Positions 9,136 to 35,908 of a stretch of DNA of 36,859 nucleotides are shown one piece after another (positions within the stretch are counted from its first letter, which is position 1; the number at the start of each line of letters is the position of its first letter). The DNA is from Erythrobacter sp. (GTDB lineage: Bacteria; Pseudomonadota; Alphaproteobacteria; Sphingomonadales; Sphingomonadaceae): assembly GCA_024642335.1 (NCBI GenBank), contig JAHEBH010000025.1:1-36859 (forward strand). The letters run 5' to 3'. Both the position numbers and the translations under genes were made by a program. Under the pieces are notes generated by a model, which worked only from the letters and a program-made list of their open reading frames with translations, was not told where the DNA came from and did no database searches.

Positions 9136-9426
9136 GTGAAGATCACCTCGATAGTGGCGATCTACGCGCTCTTCTGGGTGATGAGCGCCTTCTTCCTGCT
9201 GCCCTTTGGCGTAAAGACCCATGAGGAAGCGGGGATCGACAAGGTTCCCGGCCAGGCCGACAGCGCGCCCGCGCATTTTCGCCCCGGAAAGCTGGCTATC
9301 CGCGCAACGATCCTCGCTGCGCTTGCGACGGTGCTCTTCTTGCTCAACTACAGCTATGGCTGGATCACCGTGGAGGACATCAACCTGATCGGCAATCCGC
9401 CCGATCCGGATGCAAAGTCGGCCTAG
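9136..9426 (+). CDS. DUF1467 family two-TM membrane protein
   Basis: This 96-residue protein starts at GTG 9136, four bases after the rnj stop. A same-frame start at 9013 exists, but its extra 41 residues lie inside rnj and look like shadow coding. It has two membrane helices (about residues 5-23 and 55-72) separated by a loop with the conserved LPFGVKTHEEAG signature of DUF1467, and ends in NPPDPDAKSA. The function is unknown. The family is small and alphaproteobacterial and often sits in this neighbourhood. The stop TAG lies in the palindrome CTAG at 9423-9426, which also supplies the stop of the convergent coiled-coil gene. Confidence 0.88.
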   Translation: MKITSIVAIYALFWVMSAFFLLPFGVKTHEEAGIDKVPGQADSAPAHFRPGKLAIRATILAALATVLFLLNYSYGWITVEDINLIGNPPDPDAKSA

Positions 9427-11984
9427 TCGCGCAGGCGCTCTATCGACTGCGCCATGGCGACGTAGAGCTTCCCGATATCGGACGAGAGCAAGGTCACCGC
9501 CAGCGAGTGCCCGTCCCGCGTCGACAGCACGTTGCGCAACATCCCTTCGAAATCGTGGATGTAGCGGTTCACTGCCTCACGGAAATCGCCATCCTGCTCG
9601 TACAGATCGCATACGCCGCGCACTTCATGGCCGCTTAGCAGCCTGACAGCGCGGCGCGTGAAGATACCGCGATCGCCCTTGAGATAGCTGTTCCATGCCG
9701 TGTCGGTGACTTCGGTGTCGAAAGCGCGGGAGACATCGATGGCGCAGGAATTCAGGCTCTCGGTGATCATCGCCATGCGACGTGTGAAATCGCTGTCGAC
9801 CTGATCTTCGGCCTTCGCTCGTGCCTGTGCCACGCGCTGTTCCAGATTGCCGGCCAGCTCGTTCACCTTGGTCAACTGGTCGCGCAGGAGGCTGGCGGTG
9901 GCCCGGCCCCTTTCGTCCGCGAGGCGGGCAGCCTCTTCCAGTTCTGCGATGGCGGATTTGGCACCTTGCCGCAGGGCGCGGTCGATCGCTTCGCTGCCTG
10001 AATTTCCGATACGCTCGGCAATCTCGCGCACGGCTTGCGATTGATCGGTTTGCAGTTTGCCGAAGATATCGCCCGCGGCCTTTTCCAGCTGGTCGATCGC
10101 GGACTGAAGTTCTTCGCGCGCCTCCTTGGCCAGTTCGCGCGACTTTCCGGTGAGGGCATCGAGCTGGCTGTCCATCGATTCCATGCGTTCCAGCGATTCG
10201 CGCGTATGGCCTGCGGAGTGCTCCAGATTGGCGGACAGGCTGGCGCTCTTGCTTTCGGCATCGCCCAGCGTCAGTTGCAGTTCCTCCGCCTTGGCGTGGA
10301 AAGCCGACAGGCGTGCTTCGGCGACTTCTATCGATTTCGAGAGCTTTCCTTCCGAATGGTCGGAGGTCGAACGGATGATCTCGAGCAGGCGCACCGCATC
10401 GTCTGTCAAATGGTTGAGGAATGCGCCCCCTTCTTCCAGGATTGCGCGGCTTTGCGAGAGCTTTTCTGCAAGGACAGCTGTCTGTTCCTTCAGCCTTGTG
10501 GTTTCATCGCTGCCTTGCGCGATGAGGCGGGCCATCTGCCGATCCAGCTCATCAAGGCGCTTGGCAAGCGCCTCTCCGCGTTCGGCCAGACCGGACACAT
10601 GAGCAAGATGCTCCTGCTGTTGCTCCAGGAGCCTGCTGTCGAAAGCGGAAATGCGTCCTTGCAACCGTTCCAGCCCCTGAGCTTCGGCATGGTCCTGCGC
10701 TTCGCGCCTGCGAGCGAATTCGCTGTCGAAGGCTTGCGCACTCTCGCTGATCTGCCCGTCTGTTCGCATGGCAGCCTCGCTCAAGGCGTCGAGCCGTTCG
10801 CGCGCCTTGTTGATTGCAGCCTCGTCGATCCTGCTGATCTCCTCAAGAGCCTCGGATAGGCGCGCCTGCAAACCGTCGACCGCGGAAGCCCACAGGGTTT
10901 GTGCCTCTTCCTGGCCGTCGCGGACCGAACGGCTCACTGCATCGCCCTCACGGCGCAGATCGTCCAGGCGGGTGCGCAGACTGCCAAGGATCTCCTCTTC
11001 GCGCTGGCGGCCTTCTTCGCTTCGCTGGACCAGTTCGGCACCCAGTTCTTCCGCGCGGCGGCGGATGGATGCGAGACTGTCTGTCTCGCGCGTCTCAAGC
11101 TCCAGCCGGAATTCCTCGTTCCGCGTGCGCATGGCGGCGAAGCGTGTTTCGGAAGCCTCCTCAAGCCCGGCCATGCGCTGTTCCAGCGACGCCACTGTCT
11201 CGCTGACCTTGTCGCGCAGGCCCTCCACCTGCCGCTCGCTGGCGGTTCCGAACTCGTTCAGGCGCTGGAAGCCGCTGACCAGATCATCCAGCTGCGATTG
11301 TGCGGTATGTCCGGCATTGCCGATCTGGCTGGCGACATCGCGTGCGGCATTGGAAATGACCGGCAATTGGTCGCGCAGCTTGTCCATATTGGAGACGGCT
11401 GTGTTACTTACATTCCCGATCGCATTCACCTGTTCGCCATTGTCGCGGATAAGGTCCTGCAGATGCTCGGCATGGGTGGAAAGGCGTTCAGCGGCGATAC
11501 GACCAAGCGATTCAAGATCGCGCGATTGCGAGGCCATGAAGTCACGCGCGAGGCTGAGTTCGCGATTGACGACCGATAGCCTTGTTTCGAGCGCGGCAGA
11601 TTCGGCGGAAAGCAGGCGCGCAGTTTGGCCGAAACGTGCGGCTTCGCGGCGGCTGTTACGCATGGCGAGCAGCCAGAGCACGACAACCAGGAGGACGGGA
11701 ACGGACCAGTCGACGATCCAGCCAAGCCAAAGCTCGGGTGAAGCGCCCGCGAGCAACTCCTGCTGATGGACCCAGCCAAAAAAGCCGGTCCACGCCATAA
11801 CGACCAATATTGCGAGCGTCGGGACGATCCAGCCGAGGTTGCGGGGTGGGCGTTCTTCCTCCCATGCTTCCTCAAGGACTTCCTCTTCAAGGATCAACTC
11901 GTCCACGGGCGGCTTAGGAGCGGCCTGCACGTCGGAAGTTTGTTCTCCGCCATCAAGGGCGACCAGATTTTGTCTCTTGCTCAT
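9423..11984 (-). CDS. Two-TM coiled-coil protein resembling polarity factor TipN
   Basis: The 853 residues begin with a short acidic cytoplasmic segment (about 1-48), then two membrane helices (about 50-71 and 86-107), then a very long coiled coil (about 110-750) rich in Glu, Arg, Ala and Leu. The last 90-100 residues are globular and look conserved (SYLKGDRGIFTRRAVRLLSG, VNRYIHDFEGMLRNVL, LLSSDIGKLYVAMAQSIERL). This layout and size match Caulobacter TipN, a new-pole landmark protein with two N-terminal TM helices and a large coiled coil. No P-loop is visible, so an SMC-type ATPase is unlikely. The assignment is by architecture, not sequence search. It is divergent from the HPt-like gene and overlaps DUF1467 by four bases at the 3' ends. 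Confidence 0.65.
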   Translation of the reverse strand: MSKRQNLVALDGGEQTSDVQAAPKPPVDELILEEEVLEEAWEEERPPRNLGWIVPTLAILVVMAWTGFFGWVHQQELLAGASPELWLGWIVDWSVPVLLVVVLWLLAMRNSRREAARFGQTARLLSAESAALETRLSVVNRELSLARDFMASQSRDLESLGRIAAERLSTHAEHLQDLIRDNGEQVNAIGNVSNTAVSNMDKLRDQLPVISNAARDVASQIGNAGHTAQSQLDDLVSGFQRLNEFGTASERQVEGLRDKVSETVASLEQRMAGLEEASETRFAAMRTRNEEFRLELETRETDSLASIRRRAEELGAELVQRSEEGRQREEEILGSLRTRLDDLRREGDAVSRSVRDGQEEAQTLWASAVDGLQARLSEALEEISRIDEAAINKARERLDALSEAAMRTDGQISESAQAFDSEFARRREAQDHAEAQGLERLQGRISAFDSRLLEQQQEHLAHVSGLAERGEALAKRLDELDRQMARLIAQGSDETTRLKEQTAVLAEKLSQSRAILEEGGAFLNHLTDDAVRLLEIIRSTSDHSEGKLSKSIEVAEARLSAFHAKAEELQLTLGDAESKSASLSANLEHSAGHTRESLERMESMDSQLDALTGKSRELAKEAREELQSAIDQLEKAAGDIFGKLQTDQSQAVREIAERIGNSGSEAIDRALRQGAKSAIAELEEAARLADERGRATASLLRDQLTKVNELAGNLEQRVAQARAKAEDQVDSDFTRRMAMITESLNSCAIDVSRAFDTEVTDTAWNSYLKGDRGIFTRRAVRLLSGHEVRGVCDLYEQDGDFREAVNRYIHDFEGMLRNVLSTRDGHSLAVTLLSSDIGKLYVAMAQSIERLRD

Positions 11985-12014
11985 CCGGACAAGATATCAG
12001 GACTGTGGCCGACG

Positions 12015-12045
12015 TTAAACCCCGCCTTAACCCTATACTGGTTAA
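12015..12045. promoter_or_regulatory. TTAA-rich divergent control region with TTAACCCTAT
   Basis: The space between the coiled-coil gene (starts at 11984, minus) and the HPt-like gene contains three TTAA boxes at 12015-12018, 12027-12030 and 12042-12045. The middle one is within TTAACCCTAT (12027-12036), repeated exactly at 13593-13602 upstream of another cluster gene. TATACT at 12034-12039 resembles a -10 box, though no good -35 is visible. TTAACC is the half-site of the cell-cycle regulator CtrA. The TTAA pair here is spaced by 8 rather than the consensus 7 bases, so a full CtrA site is not claimed. Confidence 0.35.
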
Positions 12046-12055
12046 CTTCGACAAC

Positions 12056-12361
12056 ATGATGATGGACCTGGGTGATTTCGACGCGAATCTGGCCGCCGCT
12101 GCAGGGGAGGATCCTGCATTGCGGGCTGAATTGCTTGCTAGCTTTCTTGAAAGCGTGAAGTCGCATGTCGACCTGCTTGGAAGGGCCCGCTGCGATGGAA
12201 ACTGGCGTGTTGCTGCCCAGCGGCTGCGCGGGCTCGGTGCCAGCTTCCATTCGAGTGAACTTACGCGCCTTGCGGATGAAGCCCTGGTTTCTGCCCCTGG
12301 CGACCCCGTGATTGTCCGCAAACTTGCTCAATACGCCGACGTTTTTACTCCCCGCGGCTAA
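12056..12361 (+). CDS. HPt-domain-like protein lacking the phosphoacceptor histidine
   Basis: This is a small helical protein of 101 residues from ATG 12056. A GTG at 12005 would add 17 unconserved residues and leave no room for the divergent promoters, so it is not preferred; ATGs at 12059 and 12062 are also possible. The pattern LRAELLASFLESVKSHVDLL, then WRVAAQRLRGLGASFHSSEL and LTRLADEAL, follows the first helices of histidine phosphotransfer domains, where the active motif is AHxLKGxA. Here it reads AQRLRGLG, with Gln55 in the histidine position. If the reading is right, the protein cannot accept phosphate there and may act as a binding partner. The fold assignment comes from this short motif and helix pattern, so it is moderate. 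Confidence 0.6.
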   Translation: MMMDLGDFDANLAAAAGEDPALRAELLASFLESVKSHVDLLGRARCDGNWRVAAQRLRGLGASFHSSELTRLADEALVSAPGDPVIVRKLAQYADVFTPRG

Positions 12362-12412
12362 TTGTACAGGCAAATGCTTGGCAGCGCCCCGCTGGCATCC
12401 TAGCAAGGCAGG

Positions 12413-13585
12413 GTGAACAAGTCCGAGCCTCTCGCCACTTCCGTACTTATCACCCTGCCCGGTGCAGGCGCGAATGCTCCGTTGGTTCTCGGCAAGATAC
12501 TGCCCGTGCGACAGGTCGAGTATGCCGCCGCCCAAGGGTGCATCAAGGTGATCCTGCTGGGGCGCAGGTCACCATCGGATGCGATGACGATTCACCGCGC
12601 GGCAGAGGGGGCGGGTCTCAAGCTCGTCGAAGTGTCGGGAGCGCATGCGCTGGCAGCCGCAGTGGCAGAAGACGAGAGTCTGCTGGTCCTGCAGCACAAT
12701 TTGCTTCCCGCCTGGGATGATTGGGCGAAGGGCGATGCAACAAGGGGTTCAATCCTGACCTTGCCAGCCACGGCAGGTCGCGACGCGGGTTTCGAGAGGA
12801 TTGACCTTGCACGCGCGTGGGCAGGGGCACTCGTCATTCCCGGAAGATACCTTTCCACCCTGCTGGAATTGCCCGAGGAAACCGAACCAGCCCCCGCGAT
12901 ATTGCGCATTGCCTTGCAGGCCCGGCTTCCCGAAAGGCCGCTCGACGAAACGATCCTGGGCGATGGCAGCTGGTCGGCTGTCACTAGCGGTGCCGATCTG
13001 CCTGTGATCGAGGAACAGTGGTTGGCGCAGCACGCACAACCATCCCCATCAACTTCATTATCCGGCTTAGCTGCAGGATTTATCTTACGAAAAAATAGGA
13101 AATTTCTGTTTGCACGCGAACGGGTGCCGTTAGCCATTCTGGTGTTGTCTCTGGCCGCTGCAATCGGGGCAGTAGGTGCCGCCTATTTCGGGCACGGATT
13201 GGCGGGCTTCGGTCTTCTGGCACTGGCCAGTCTGCTGCACCCGCTGGCTCTTGAGGCTAAACGCCTGCGCGAAATTCCTTCTTTTTTCCCAAGCAACTGG
13301 CCGAAAACGCAATTCCTCCTCGACATTGCGCTCGTGGCAACTGGTTTCCTTTCGATTGGAGGCAGTCTGGCGGCAAGGCTCTTCCTGCCATTCGTCCTTC
13401 TTGCTGCCTTCCATTCCCCACCTGCTCCAGCGAGGACTTGGCAGGCGAGGATCAGAGACAGGACACTTGTTTTTGCGCTGGTTGGAGTCGCCGGAATATT
13501 CATGGGTGCCGAGAGGGCATTGATGCTGCTTTCCACCACCTTGTTGGCGCTGAATTTGCTCTTGCGGAACGTCCCAAAGGGATAA
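12413..13585 (+). CDS. Membrane protein with possible nucleotidyltransferase-like N-terminus
   Basis: Unrecognised. The 390-residue protein starts at GTG 12413. Residues 1-205 are soluble and alternate strands and helices in a way reminiscent of sugar/MobA-type nucleotidyltransferases (SVLITLPGAGANAPLVLGKI, EYAAAQGCIKVILLG, GALVIPGRYLSTLL). The usual glycine-rich LxAGxGxR motif is not clean, so activity is doubtful. Residues 210-230 form a Ser-rich then basic linker, and about five or six hydrophobic helices follow (roughly 239-257, 262-281, 301-319, 322-334, 351-366, 368-385). The order recalls inositol-phosphate cytidylyltransferase/DIPP synthase fusions, but the CDP-alcohol phosphotransferase motif DGxxAR is absent. 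It lies in a plus-strand run with the HPt-like and kinase-like genes. Confidence 0.6.
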   Translation: MNKSEPLATSVLITLPGAGANAPLVLGKILPVRQVEYAAAQGCIKVILLGRRSPSDAMTIHRAAEGAGLKLVEVSGAHALAAAVAEDESLLVLQHNLLPAWDDWAKGDATRGSILTLPATAGRDAGFERIDLARAWAGALVIPGRYLSTLLELPEETEPAPAILRIALQARLPERPLDETILGDGSWSAVTSGADLPVIEEQWLAQHAQPSPSTSLSGLAAGFILRKNRKFLFARERVPLAILVLSLAAAIGAVGAAYFGHGLAGFGLLALASLLHPLALEAKRLREIPSFFPSNWPKTQFLLDIALVATGFLSIGGSLAARLFLPFVLLAAFHSPPAPARTWQARIRDRTLVFALVGVAGIFMGAERALMLLSTTLLALNLLLRNVPKG

Positions 13586-13592
13586 CGCGTAT

Positions 13593-13602
13593 TTAACCCT
13601 AT
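13593..13602 (+). promoter_or_regulatory. TTAACCCTAT element, second copy
   Basis: The 34-base gap before the helical protein gene contains TTAACCCTAT, ending 17 bases before the ATG at 13620. The identical 10-mer lies at 12027-12036, 19 bases before the preferred start of the HPt-like gene. Same sequence at nearly the same distance suggests a shared promoter or regulator site (a CtrA half-site overlapping a -10 is one possibility). Two copies alone could be chance. Confidence 0.3.
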
Positions 13603-13619
13603 TTCCCTATGGCGAATGC

Positions 13620-14564
13620 ATGAGTGAAGACGTCCAGTCTGTTGCCACTGCCGAAGCACCCTTGCGGGAACAGCTTGCCAGGGGGGATGCTGCCATTGCC
13701 GGCGCACGCCCTGTCTTGCGTCACCTGCTGCTCAATCACGACCAGACCATGTTCAGCGACGAGGTCCGTGCACGCGTATCCGGCATGCTGCATCATGTGG
13801 CGCGCCAATTGCTGGCGGCCGGTGCGGAGGATAGGAACGGATCAGGATCGGGCGCGATTTCGGAACTCTCGACGGCAGTAGCAGCGCAAGCGCGTACACT
13901 GGCCGCCACTCTTGCAGAGGACCCGGCATTGCTCGCCCATGCGCATGGCCTGGCGCTCGAAGCACGGCTGGTTGATACCCTGCGGCACAGAACGGGGAAT
14001 GATGGTGCTATTTCACCATTGATACAGGAAGTTGCAGCGTCTCCCGATCCCGAACAGGCCGGATTGGCCATGCGGACCCTCGCTGCACAGGCGCGCTTTT
14101 TTCAGCAGCAAAGGCGGATGGAACTTCCGCTTGGCGAATTGCCCGCAGCCTTGCTCGACAAGGCATGGGTGCAGACGCACGGTGGTGCGAAAGAGGGGGA
14201 GGTCTCGCCCAGGAGTCTTTCCCGTCACGACAGTCGCCTGGGGCTGCTGGATCAGCTTGTCCGCAGCTTGGGCCAAGATGGGATGAAGGCCCTTGCGATA
14301 GAGCATTCCGGGCCTGCGCTGTTCTTGACTGCGCTTGCCCTGGAGACGGGGATAGATCGCACCCTGGCAATCTATTCCTGCGGTGAGGCTCAGGCAGTCC
14401 GTCTGGCCCTTTCCCTGCGCGCGGCGGGACTGGACCTGCAGCAGATTCGCAGGCAGTTCCTCTATTTGCATCCAGAGGCAGAAGTTCCCGAGGGGATCGA
14501 AGCCATTTCGCCGACAAGGGCAAGTGCGATCCTTGCAGACCCTGCCGCGGAACTGGTCGGTTGA
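13620..14564 (+). CDS. Unrecognised soluble helical protein
   Basis: This 314-residue protein has no signal peptide or membrane segment. It is predicted almost entirely helical: an N-terminal bundle (ARPVLRHLLLNHDQTMFSDE, ARVSGMLHHVARQLLAAG), a middle segment with QAGLAMRTLAAQARFFQQQR, and a C-terminal part with LLDQLVRSLG, LFLTALALETGI and RLALSLRAAGLDLQQIRRQF. I do not recognise a family with confidence. The repeated helical pairs loosely recall alphaproteobacterial DUF2336-type proteins, which remains a guess. It ends four bases before the kinase homologue starts, so the two are almost certainly co-translated and may interact. Confidence 0.75.
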   Translation: MSEDVQSVATAEAPLREQLARGDAAIAGARPVLRHLLLNHDQTMFSDEVRARVSGMLHHVARQLLAAGAEDRNGSGSGAISELSTAVAAQARTLAATLAEDPALLAHAHGLALEARLVDTLRHRTGNDGAISPLIQEVAASPDPEQAGLAMRTLAAQARFFQQQRRMELPLGELPAALLDKAWVQTHGGAKEGEVSPRSLSRHDSRLGLLDQLVRSLGQDGMKALAIEHSGPALFLTALALETGIDRTLAIYSCGEAQAVRLALSLRAAGLDLQQIRRQFLYLHPEAEVPEGIEAISPTRASAILADPAAELVG

Positions 14565-14568
14565 GCCG

Positions 14569-15948
14569 ATGACCGCGAGCAGCCCTTTCACGACCCATGC
14601 CAAAACGGACGGGCGCGATTGGCTGGTAGAGGCAGACGAGCCTCTTGCCGGGCTGCAGTTGCGCAATGGTGGCGAGCTGCCGGGAATCATTATCGCCCCG
14701 GCCGTGCTCGAACTGGTGCGCAAGGTGCGCCTGAGCGGTTGTGGACAAGCTGCAGCGGTACGGGCGCAGGATGCGGATGAAATGATTACCGCATGGGTGG
14801 CGGTCGAACCGGACAAATCTGGTGAGGGCTGTCTTCTTTCCGTTTCGAACTGGCAGTCCAGCCCGGCACAAGCACAGTCTTCCCGTGCAGAACGAGAACG
14901 GCAAATCGCACTGGCGCGCCAGTTTGCAGAGCTGACCGCAAGGCTCGACAGCAAGCAATGCTTGCTGGCGGTGGAAAGCCAGTGTCTGGAATTGCAGGGG
15001 CTGCTCGCTCGCATGCGGGAAGGCCTTGGGTGTCCCTGGACCGATTTCGTGAACCTTGATGGCAACGCCCTTCAGCAGCCAACGCATTGGCGTTTGCTGG
15101 ACGGCGCCACTCTTTCGCTTGAAGGCTCCGAGCGGCGCTGGAATGCACTTCTGGTGCCTTTGGGGAGCCCTGTGCCGGGACGTGACGGATTTGAGCTATA
15201 TCTCACTGCCGATCGCATCTCTGCAAACCCTGCCGAAACGTCTGACGCTGCCGATCCGAACATCAGTGGCAATGCCTTGCCTGGCATCGGGCCGCAAATC
15301 ATGCCTGTGCTGCGCCAGCCGGTTTCCCGGATCATTGCCAATGCGGAGGCGATCCGGGCGCAATTGGCAGGTCCCCTCGCGGAAGAATATTCGAACTACG
15401 CGCGCGATATCGCCTCTGCGGGCGAACACCTGCTTTCGCTTGTCGACGACATGACCACGCTGGAATTGGTCGAGGGTGAGGAGCTCAATCTTGTTATCGA
15501 GCCAATCGATCTGGCGGCCATCGCCCGGCGGGCGGCAGGCATACTTCGGGTGCGTGCAAGCGAACGCAAGATCAGTATCGATATGCCCAAGGAAGGCGAA
15601 CGCGCACCAGCCATGGGAGAGTTCGGAAGGGTCCTGCAGGTTTTGTTCAACCTGCTGGACAATGCCATTCGTTATACGCCTGAAGGATCGCAGATCTGGA
15701 TTCGTGCAGAGAGCGGGGCTGGAATGTCACGCGTGACCGTCGCCGATCAGGGCGGGGGGCTTGATGCCGGGCAGCAACAGCGCATCTTCGAGAAGTTCGA
15801 ACGTCTTGGTCGTAGCAGCGACGGAGGTTCCGGACTTGGGCTCTATATCTCTCGCAGGCTGGCAGAAGCCATGGGCGGTTCGCTCACGGTGGAAAGCGCC
15901 AAGGGGCAAGGGGCCCGCTTTACGCTGGAGCTGCCGACAGGCGGTTGA
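14569..15948 (+). CDS. Cytosolic sensor histidine kinase homologue without the H-box histidine
   Basis: The 459-residue protein starts at ATG 14569. It has an N-terminal sensory-like region without membrane segments (1-220), a dimerisation helix pair (about 238-310) and a full HATPase domain (about 320-459). ATP-binding boxes look intact: N-box FNLLDNAIRY (N361, N365), G1 DQGGGLD, F-box IFEKFERLG and G2 GSGLGLYISRR. The dimerisation region aligns without gaps to PleC/DivJ-type kinases (AGPL, DIASAGEHLLSLVDDM), but the SHELRTPL H-box reads MPVLRQPV, with Pro246 at the histidine. It therefore should not autophosphorylate in the usual way, like DivL, whose histidine is a tyrosine. It belongs to the family by fold; its role is unknown. 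Confidence 0.85.
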   Translation: MTASSPFTTHAKTDGRDWLVEADEPLAGLQLRNGGELPGIIIAPAVLELVRKVRLSGCGQAAAVRAQDADEMITAWVAVEPDKSGEGCLLSVSNWQSSPAQAQSSRAERERQIALARQFAELTARLDSKQCLLAVESQCLELQGLLARMREGLGCPWTDFVNLDGNALQQPTHWRLLDGATLSLEGSERRWNALLVPLGSPVPGRDGFELYLTADRISANPAETSDAADPNISGNALPGIGPQIMPVLRQPVSRIIANAEAIRAQLAGPLAEEYSNYARDIASAGEHLLSLVDDMTTLELVEGEELNLVIEPIDLAAIARRAAGILRVRASERKISIDMPKEGERAPAMGEFGRVLQVLFNLLDNAIRYTPEGSQIWIRAESGAGMSRVTVADQGGGLDAGQQQRIFEKFERLGRSSDGGSGLGLYISRRLAEAMGGSLTVESAKGQGARFTLELPTGG

Positions 15949-15975: not shown

Positions 15976-17262
15976 TCAGCGCTGCGAGACCGGCACGTAA
16001 TCGCGCTCGGTCGGGCCGGTATACAGCTGTCGCGGGCGGCCGATCTTCTGGCCGGGATCGGAGATCATCTCGTTCCACTGCGCCACCCAGCCCACAGTGC
16101 GTGCCAAAGCGAAGAGCGCGGTAAACATGGTCGTCGGGAAGCCGATCGCCGAGAGAATTGCGCCTGAATAGAAGTCGACATTGGGAAACAGCCGCTTCTC
16201 TTTGAAATAGTCGTCGTTGAGCGCCATTTCCTCAAGCTGCAGGGCGACTTCGAAGATCGGGTCGGTGACGTTGAGAGCATCGAACACTTCGCGGACCGTC
16301 TTCTGCATCACCGTCGCACGCGGATCGTAATTCTTGTACACGCGGTGGCCGAAGCCCATCAGGCGGAACGGGTCGTTCTTGTCCTTGGCGCGTTCGATAT
16401 AGTGAGGGATGCGGTCCGGCGTTCCGATTTCACGCAACATGTTGAGGCAGGCCTCGTTCGCGCCGCCATGCGCCGGACCCCACAGGCAGGCAATGCCCGC
16501 CGCGATGCATGCGAACGGATTGGCGCCCGAGGAACCCGCCAGCCGGACGGTCGAGGTCGAGGCGTTCTGCTCGTGGTCGGCATGGAGGATGAAGATCCGG
16601 TCCATCGCCTTTTCCACCGCCGGGTGAATCTCATAGTTTTCGGCCGGAACGCCGAAGGTCATGCGCAGGAAATTGCCCGTATAGCTGAGCGAATTGTCCG
16701 GATACATGAATGGCTGGCCGACGGCATATTTGTAGGCCATCGCCGCGATGGTGGGCATCTTGGCGATCAGACGGTGGCTCGAAATACGGCGATGTTCGGG
16801 GTCCGAAATATCGGTGCTGTCGTGATAGAAGGCTGACAGCGCACCCACCACGCCGCACATCACTGCCATCGGATGCGCGTCGCGGCGGAAACCGCGATAG
16901 AAGGTCATCAGCTGTTCGTGCAGCATGGTGTGCCGGCTGATCGTGTTCTCGAAATCAGCCAGTTCACCGGCATTGGGCAATTCGCCGTTGAGCAACAGGT
17001 AGGAGACTTCCATGAAGTTCGAATGTTCGGCCAGTTGACCGATCGGATAGCCGCGATGCAGCAGGACACCTTCATCGCCATCGATATAGGTCAGCGCGCT
17101 TTCGCAGCTGGCAGTGGAGGTGAAGCCCGGATCGTAAGTGAAGGCACCTGTCGAGGCATAGAGCTTGCGGATATCGACCACATCGGGGCCGGTGCTTCCT
17201 TCCATGATGGGGAAGTTCCAGGTTTCACCGCCGATGGTGAGCTGTGCCTTCTTGTCCGCCAA
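15976..17262 (-). CDS. gltA: Citrate synthase
   Basis: This enzyme condenses acetyl-CoA with oxaloacetate at the entry of the TCA cycle. The 428 residues are of the Gram-negative type II hexameric form. Catalytic residues are visible as H265 ([16 protein letters not shown]), H306 ([14 protein letters not shown]) and D363 ([12 protein letters not shown]), equivalent to H264, H305 and D362 of E. coli. The start is a TTG at 17262, supported by a strong AAGGAGA six bases upstream (17269-17275). It lies 18 bases downstream of gltX on the same strand, so the two are probably co-transcribed. Confidence 0.96.
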
Positions 17263-35808: not shown

Positions 35809-35832
35809 GGGGAAACGGGACATCCCCTTTTT
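35809..35832 (+). terminator. Rho-independent terminator after DUF1178
   Basis: GGGGA (35809-35813) pairs with TCCCC (35823-35827) around a nine-base loop, followed by TTTTT (35828-35832). It lies ten bases after the DUF1178 stop and touches the 3' end of the convergent tRNA gene. The short stem makes it moderate in strength. Confidence 0.6.
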
Positions 35833-35908
35833 GGTGCGCCCGACAGGATTCGAACCTGTGGCCCCCGGATTAGGAATCCGATGCTCTATCCTGCTGAGCT
35901 ACGGGCGC
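35832..35908 (-). tRNA. tRNA-Arg (anticodon CCT)
   Basis: The minus strand gives a full cloverleaf: acceptor GCGCCCG (5' end 35908) pairs with CGGGCGC, the D arm contains AGCTCAGCAGGATAGAGC, the anticodon loop is TTCCTAA with anticodon CCT, and the T arm is CAGGTTCGAATCCTG. Discriminator A and an encoded CCA (35832-35834) follow. It is 77 bases long and reads the rare arginine codon AGG. Such tRNA 3' ends are common integration sites, but no integrase is present here. Confidence 0.97.

Follow-up and report, generated by a model that had tools for sequence, protein, structure and literature searches.

A window of 36,859 nucleotides from Erythrobacter sp. (assembly GCA_024642335.1, contig JAHEBH010000025.1, positions 1 to 36,859) contains five genes that we judge, somewhat probably, to encode a polar signalling module: a scaffold of the TipN/GPR type and a divergent four-gene operon, whose phosphorelay partners would have been turned once into phosphate-free adaptors. 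The parts belong to known kinds. Facing the scaffold gene are genes for an Hpt-fold protein that lacks the histidine, a degenerate membrane protein resembling IPCT-DIPPS, a member of the DUF2336 superfamily and a pseudo-histidine kinase (Table 1).

The five open reading frames (ORFs) that an initial annotation had assigned to a polarity/cell-cycle module are all present where it had placed them. The Hpt-like ORF runs from a GTG at 12005, and the N-termini of its relatives point to the ATG at 12056 as the start; with this start, 71 base pairs (bp) separate the divergent starts of the scaffold and Hpt genes. The close packing proposed for the genes after the divergent pair was confirmed: within the plus-strand run the gaps are only 51, 34 and 4 bp, and the Hpt, membrane protein, DUF2336 and kinase genes are therefore likely to form one operon. 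For comparison, the window, 20 loci of its genus (chosen by a match to the helical DUF2336 protein) and 60 loci of other genera (chosen by a scaffold match) were combined, and the ORFs of these 81 loci were searched with iterated profiles in stretches of 20 kb. The family-scan alignments held part of the rows, namely 40 of 53 for Hpt, 46 of 74 for the membrane protein, 48 of 64 for DUF2336, 35 of 70 for the kinase and 41 of 81 for the scaffold.

The scaffold is, as judged by its C-terminal domain from ORFs of the class and from published descriptions, a relative of the TipN/GPR/RgsE family. The two-transmembrane (two-TM) coiled-coil architecture ascribed to it is borne out by hydropathy, which yields two hydrophobic stretches (residues 50-68 and 90-108) followed by a long helical middle. 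A Pfam scan gave coiled-coil-type matches only, the best being Apolipoprotein (1.4e-8, below the cut-off). In the alignment, conservation is highest in the last ~130 residues. A profile of the last 226 residues, built from 41 of the 81 rows, matched 69 of 190 genomes of the class (own family accounting for 3), and the domain occurs in 72 of 80 genomes of the order. In 14 class-level loci of other families it lies at the extreme C-terminus of ORFs of 662-1990 amino acids, four of which have the size of GPR/RgsE (1672-1990 amino acids). A crude hydropathy scan found two N-terminal segments in 9 of these 14 ORFs and in 2 of 5 Caulobacteraceae ORFs; the others have one or none. The Caulobacteraceae were recognised through one genome that matched the DivL stretch of PDB entry 4q20 at 61%. 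Twelve of their 30 genomes matched the scaffold at E up to 1 (best 6.5e-7), some in the coiled coil only, and six loci were fetched on account of such weak matches. In each of the six, one ORF was matched at its C-terminus (3e-13 to 5e-8) by a profile whose 80 training rows included no Caulobacteraceae, and a reversed-sequence control of this domain search gave no match. By these class-level and Caulobacteraceae matches, the C-terminus belongs with the TipN/GPR-type family and not with an unrelated one.

Passages of PMC8546619 describe GPR as TipN-like, and passages of PMC8262873 ascribe to it two N-terminal TMs and an essential C-terminus; RgsE homologues are reported in parts of PMC7327166 from Rhizobiales, with distant ones in Emcibacterales and Rhodospirillales. 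An N-terminal TM anchor, a long helical body and the C-terminal domain are common to the window protein, to TipN of Caulobacter and to GPR/RgsE of Agrobacterium and Sinorhizobium, whereas linkage to a phosphorelay-derived operon sets the scaffold in the window apart. In 20 class-level loci, six of them from Caulobacteraceae, no Hpt, receiver, DUF2336 or membrane-protein model matched beside the scaffold gene; L226 alone has a kinase-model match nearby.

The gene facing the scaffold had been described as HPt-like and histidine-less, and the alignment agrees. At the histidine column, 113 distinct sequences contain M 38, L 27, Q 19, E 9, W 8, R 5 and H 2, the remaining residues being S, D, G, T and A (1 each). 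The phospho-histidine is therefore absent in 111 of 113; the two exceptions are L044 and L105. At E up to 1, Pfam Hpt matches 14 of 40 relatives (best 7e-5) and does not match the window protein itself, which is reached at 7.8e-7 by a profile of canonical Hpt proteins. For the structural model (pLDDT 91.6) the top fold match is Shewanella 3myf (Foldseek probability 1.0, E 0.12), and Caulobacter ShpA (2ooc) follows at rank 25 (E 1.7). The helical Hpt fold is shared with these proteins; in contrast to them, the window family lacks the phospho-histidine and has a new conserved motif, RARCDxNW. This motif is found in the window as RARCD(G/A)NW at 12182-12205, with Trp in all 113 and Cys in 105 of the 113 distinct sequences. 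The queries P0002 and P0003 gave chance matches only against PDB sequences.

A loss of the same kind is seen in the kinase. It matches HATPase_c (2.8e-28) and HisKA (3.7e-6), and its acceptor column holds P 112, A 4, gap 3 and H 2, with N, S, R, E and D 1 each, in 126 distinct sequences. The initial annotation was right in calling it a pseudokinase without histidine: the window carries a Pro, and H occurs only in L087 and L105, both doubtful orthologues that were retained as exceptions. The kinases of L093 and L108, in which the kinase domain alone matched, were left out of these counts; that of L108 carries His. The H-box is replaced by the strongly conserved PVLRQPxxRIIANAET. The key Asn, Asp, Gly and Phe of the N, G1, F and G2 ATP boxes are kept in 135 of 138 rows, and two of the remaining three are gaps. 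In L105 (14121-16712) a FlgK-like gene stands between the membrane protein and the DUF2336-kinase pair, in frames apparently broken by indels in a single-contig assembly; a second flagellar-looking ORF in this interval is presumably FlgL. The pair lies beyond the flagellar genes, and its orthology is uncertain.

The kinase had also been proposed as the counterpart of DivL, and here the initial annotation did not hold. Both proteins are histidine kinases without phospho-histidine that have kept the ATP domain, and PDB entry 4q20 matched at 1.3e-19, fourth in the list. However, the window kinase has Pro instead of Tyr, set in a conserved new H-box, and has no PAS match; a PAS domain was present in 2 of 35 relatives. 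Moreover, when the DivL stretch served as query against the own genome, four matches were obtained, of which L255 was the best (33% identity, E 2.1e-24) and the window kinase the second (E 1.5e-20). L255, located elsewhere in the genome, contains PAS_7, PAS_4, HisKA and HATPase_c and has a Tyr at the acceptor position (MSYEFRTPL). The window kinase was consequently rejected as DivL.

Sister families point to the origin of the module. Twenty loci were fetched from families f3-f8 of the order, of which L295 is incomplete at a contig end. In 8 of the 20, the profile built from histidine-less Hpt proteins picked up an Hpt gene that faces the scaffold gene, and each of these 8 has the phospho-histidine; two more (L289, L294) were recognised by a motif that includes the histidine. 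Eighteen of the 20 loci encode both a receiver of the CheY type and a second protein resembling Hpt, which carries the motif (A/S)HDM(K/R/Q)GQGG. Within Sphingomonadaceae a receiver was found in 4 of 99 genomes, always beside the scaffold (L105, L313, L314, L315). The order in L314 is scaffold, HPt(His), receiver, Hpt2 and membrane protein, and L315 is identical minus the membrane protein. L313 lacks the first Hpt and has receiver, Hpt2 and membrane protein; its stretch contains two DUF2336 genes (12917-14107 and 23-1171), one of which adjoins the scaffold 3' end (4.5e-69). L105 contains an HPt(His), a receiver-Hpt ORF and a membrane protein split over two ORFs. Since canonical receiver-Hpt operons face the scaffold in sister families and in basal members, the gene arrangements show, at the level of predicted proteins, that the module descends from a canonical-looking scaffold-linked phosphorelay.

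A tree of the scaffold C-terminus was calculated from 66 chosen rows and 232 columns of the one domain and was rooted at midpoint. The other families, L315 and the long-branched L295, then L105, L313 and L314, branch before the remaining Sphingomonadaceae, with the outgroup as a single side of a branch supported at only 61/14. L106, L108, L109 and L110, in which no Hpt was found and the CDP-alcohol motif is present (weak in L108), form one clade. The 38 other Sphingomonadaceae rows form another (98/97), which is labelled by default and takes in loci lacking Hpt or kinase; the histidine-less form is placed in this clade. The loss of the histidine would need one event only. In L290, L291, L293, L299, L300, L302 and L303 of the sister families, a small conserved protein (~79-138 amino acids, LxRGLxxPGGKLPLFDxxGQRx...NPxKPDWLVCKLT) is encoded beside the scaffold, between it and the Hpt or receiver gene.

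For the membrane protein, the nucleotidyltransferase-like part that had been suspected proved right in fold. Its model (pLDDT 92.8) has IPCT-DIPPS of Archaeoglobus fulgidus (4mnd) as top PDB match (E 9.9e-9, TM-score 0.61). In relatives, NTP_transf_3 matched weakly in 9 of 46 and CDP-OH_P_transf in 3 of 46 (best 4.7e-9). The two-domain fold is common to the window protein and IPCT-DIPPS, whereas the window protein lacks the catalytic motif DGxxAR...G, which was detected in 4 of 150 loci: the CDP-alcohol phosphotransferase motif is kept in L106, L109 and L110, and L108 matched weakly. A working IPCT-DIPPS was rejected because this motif is absent. The profile of the window type aligned with the motif-bearing group at an hhalign probability of 98.1%. 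In L109 (3855-5648) the motif-bearing gene is followed by myo-inositol-1-phosphate synthase (PF01658) and an IPCT-like gene, and these neighbours suggest an inositol-lipid origin of the membrane protein.

The helical protein belongs, through intermediate sequences, to the DUF2336 superfamily that includes Caulobacter SpbR. Taken alone, it matched neither the DUF2336 nor the SpbR model. The window protein has diverged too far for a direct DUF2336 search, which accordingly had 0 hits in the own genome. Of its relatives, 10 of 48 matched DUF2336 and 5 of 48 the SpbR model, the L105 protein scoring 153.6 bits and thus below the model cut-off of 400. Aligned by hhalign to syntenic DUF2336 members, the helical protein reached 97.9% (E 4e-13); the window-type profile against L105 and L102 reached only 57%. 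The word DUF2336 was not found among the openly licensed PMC papers searched. SpbR is counted among Caulobacter developmental regulators in passages of PMC12700997, whose references include a title by Wang and Bowman on cell pole development.

The scaffold is present in 97 of the 99 Sphingomonadaceae genomes sampled (92 of 94 by genus), and the gene set is kept, whole or in part, in loci of ~60 genera. All five genes occur in 45 of the 81 loci. Hpt alone is absent from 16, L105 among them; nine have the scaffold and the membrane protein alone, and 11 have other subsets. Matches to DUF2336 and kinase occur together in 64 of the 81 and are jointly missing from 12; in the other five the kinase match stands alone. 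Searched frame by frame, Hpt was detected in 121 of 161 loci, part of the remaining 40 being incomplete stretches; it is truly absent from one clade of the genus and from several genera. A second set, the best 80 of 577 confirmed candidate loci, overlaps the first (several contigs are the same) and is not independent of it; of its 58 loci longer than 19 kb, 49 have all five genes, 8 lack Hpt and 1 lacks the membrane protein. The genes are therefore syntenic in relatives, as the initial annotation had presupposed. Query P0004 by itself matched 0 of 24 genomes belonging to the order's other families, where diverged copies may nonetheless occur.

Median ratios of non-synonymous to synonymous substitution rates (dN/dS) are 0.108 for Hpt, 0.137 for the kinase, 0.16 for the membrane protein, 0.17 for DUF2336 and 0.18 for the scaffold, compared to 0.043 for gltA and 0.084 for RNase J in the flanks. 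They were determined from 11-14 close pairs picked by gltA similarity, in which single pairs reach up to 0.52. These estimates show purifying selection on the five genes.

The divergent promoter carries what is, by comparison of related regions, a conserved CtrA-box-like repeat. Passages of PMC9437464 and PMC8921679 give the CtrA site as TTAA-N7-TTAA; the window copy reads TTAA-N8-TTAACC or TAAA-N7-TTAACC and not exactly TTAA-N7-TTAA. The pattern, first noticed as TTAA repeats, was scored as TTAA-N7/8-TTAACC, out of 10, over 600-base stretches. Among 149 distinct divergent regions, 76 score 9 or 10, 38 score 8 and 35 score 6 or 7. Among the controls, none of 149 mid-gene stretches, one of 149 shuffled sequences and one of 147 downstream stretches reached 9. 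In 59 of the 76 high-scoring regions, 28-31 bases separate the repeat from the scaffold ORF's upstream end. Because the regions are related by descent, the repeat shows conservation and not independent gains. In the 2.66 Mb of the own genome the perfect TAAACC-N5-TTAACC occurs twice, in the scaffold promoter and 84 bases upstream of ctrA (NF045991, 2.7e-128), and of three sites with one mismatch, one is located 61 bases ahead of the cpaB ORF (TIGR03177, 4e-65). The shorter AAACC-N5-TTAACC was found 46 times in 31 genomes versus 33 for the reversed control, and 30 versus 9 times in 19 genomes of the genus. Of 30 loci returned for it from the 31 genomes, 5 contain ctrA (~97% identity) and 1 contains cpaB. 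The signalling genes beside the scaffold may be switched on by the cell-cycle regulator CtrA.

In the proposed mechanism, the divergent promoter would be a site from which CtrA acts on both strands. The scaffold would gather other proteins at the pole or the division site, with the membrane protein as a second anchor. ATP binding would switch the conformation of the pseudokinase, which, like the pseudo-Hpt, would bind receiver or kinase partners as a tether, decoy or allosteric modulator with no phosphate passed. Components of CckA-ChpT-CtrA would be the first candidate partners, and the adaptor-type control would fall on CckA-ChpT-CtrA or on polar growth. This mode of action would resemble that of DivL on CckA. 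As a tentative and somewhat doubtful history, an HPt-receiver-HPt relay facing a TipN-type gene may have been converted once, in the ancestor of most Sphingomonadaceae, to a phosphate-free complex. In this conversion the Hpt histidine would have been lost, the receiver and the second Hpt would have disappeared, and two proteins would have joined, one of the DUF2336/SpbR type and the other a pseudokinase that binds ATP. The resulting complex would control polarity or the CtrA pathway purely through binding and would itself be subject to feedback by CtrA.

Several observations weigh against a polar signalling module of this kind. Its support comes from sequences and predicted structures, and localisation, interaction and expression are inferred. 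The genome has a separate DivL relative (L255), and the Hpt fold search gave nothing below E 0.001. Whole subclades have no Hpt, and in 9 of 81 loci just the scaffold and the membrane protein remain; some lineages can thus do without Hpt, DUF2336 and kinase. Regarding CtrA, AAACC-N5-TTAACC occurs less often than its control in the 12 genomes that represent other families (16 versus 24), the own-genome pattern within one mismatch equals the reversed control (5 versus 5), and TTAA-N7/8-TTAAC is rarer than its control in the own genome (8 versus 21). The 35 of 149 own-family regions that score 7 or less are no better than controls, and TTAA-N7-TTAA was not found in the sister-family scaffold promoters, apart from 1 of 20 regions, 380 bases away.

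The same loci bear on the other explanations. The genes could adjoin each other only through a conserved chromosome region (nuo, RNase J ... gltA, gltX, comEC) and have no joint function; the flanks are indeed likewise conserved in most loci. Yet all five genes are retained in L085 and L097, whose stretches contain no RNase J and no gltA; L096, likewise devoid of both flanking genes, retains three, and the number kept in L096, L099 and L105 is two to four. In 12 of 81 loci DUF2336 and kinase are both gone but the scaffold is still there, and in sister families with different flanks the scaffold faces a receiver-Hpt operon. Since the block is kept with other flanks, pure neighbourhood inertia was rejected as the explanation of the synteny, and adjacency without joint function is quite unlikely. 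We consider it unlikely, too, that the locus is at heart an envelope or lipid module, in which the IPCT-DIPPS-derived protein and an apolipoprotein-like scaffold organise polar phospholipid or wall growth, like GPR/RgsE in Rhizobiales, and the signalling remnants only tune. The IPCT-DIPPS fold, the motif kept in L106, L109 and L110, the company of myo-inositol-1-phosphate synthase and an IPCT-like gene in L109, and the Apolipoprotein match of the scaffold, though below the Pfam cut-off, would fit such a function, as would the survival of scaffold and membrane protein as a pair when the others are lost (9 of 81). But the catalytic motif is absent from the window and confined to 4 of 150 loci, and the order-wide partner of the scaffold is a receiver-Hpt operon and no lipid enzyme.

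Finally, the kinase might still signal through another residue, such as the conserved His of AGxHLL (residue 287 in the window), or as a phosphatase. Complete N, G1, F and G2 boxes and the X-region His in 133 of 138 rows are compatible with such activity. The same His, however, is present in the canonical L105 kinase and is therefore ancestral rather than a new acceptor, and the neighbouring Hpt has lost its histidine too; continued signalling is very unlikely.

Table 1. Features of the module in the window (positions of the window; strand + or -).
Feature	Position	Strand	Basis or remark
TipN/GPR/RgsE-type two-TM coiled-coil scaffold	9423..11984	-	853 amino acids; C-terminal domain profile, order and family searches
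Conserved C-terminal domain of scaffold (~residues 725-853)	9426..9812	-	profile and alignment
Two N-terminal TM segments of scaffold (residues 50-68, 90-108)	11661..11837	-	hydropathy
CtrA-box-like direct repeat TTAAACCCCGCCTTAACC in divergent promoter	12015..12032	+	region scoring; second perfect genomic copy upstream of ctrA
Hpt-fold protein without histidine	12056..12361	+	alternative start GTG 12005; His position is Gln (12218-12220)
Degenerate IPCT-DIPPS-like membrane protein	12413..13585	+	nucleotidyltransferase-like fold and TM domain without CDP-alcohol phosphotransferase motif
DUF2336 (SpbR superfamily) protein	13620..14564	+	314 amino acids; recognised via intermediates
Pseudo-histidine kinase	14569..15948	+	459 amino acids; HisKA-like, His to Pro (codon 246, 15304-15306), intact HATPase_c

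Going by their sequences, we take the genes that border the locus to be RNase J, together with a small ORF, on one flank, and gltA, gltX and comEC on the opposite flank. The citrate synthase gene, likewise named from its sequence (15976-17262), adjoins the operon and is convergent with it. TipN is linked genetically to CtrA and to citrate synthase in Caulobacter, according to passages of PMC7083601. That gltA adjoins the operon may be a coincidence, since the flanks are conserved. The sole tRNA found in the window is a tRNA-Arg (cct) at 35832-35908.

Searches of openly licensed PMC papers, among which none was made by the name of the arrangement, did not bring up this arrangement and its descent from a phosphorelay linked to the scaffold. 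To our knowledge, little is known of how TipN/GPR scaffolds are wired to signalling outside Caulobacter and Rhizobiales, and searches of such papers for TipN with Sphingomonas, Novosphingobium or Sphingomonadales found none on this subject, as judged by title. The locus gives the TipN/GPR family a genetic partner across the order, a receiver-Hpt relay, and offers a natural series from a canonical to a histidine-less relay. It makes testable which role pseudokinases and pseudo-Hpt proteins have after their chemistry is lost, and how polarity and CtrA may be coupled in sphingomonads.

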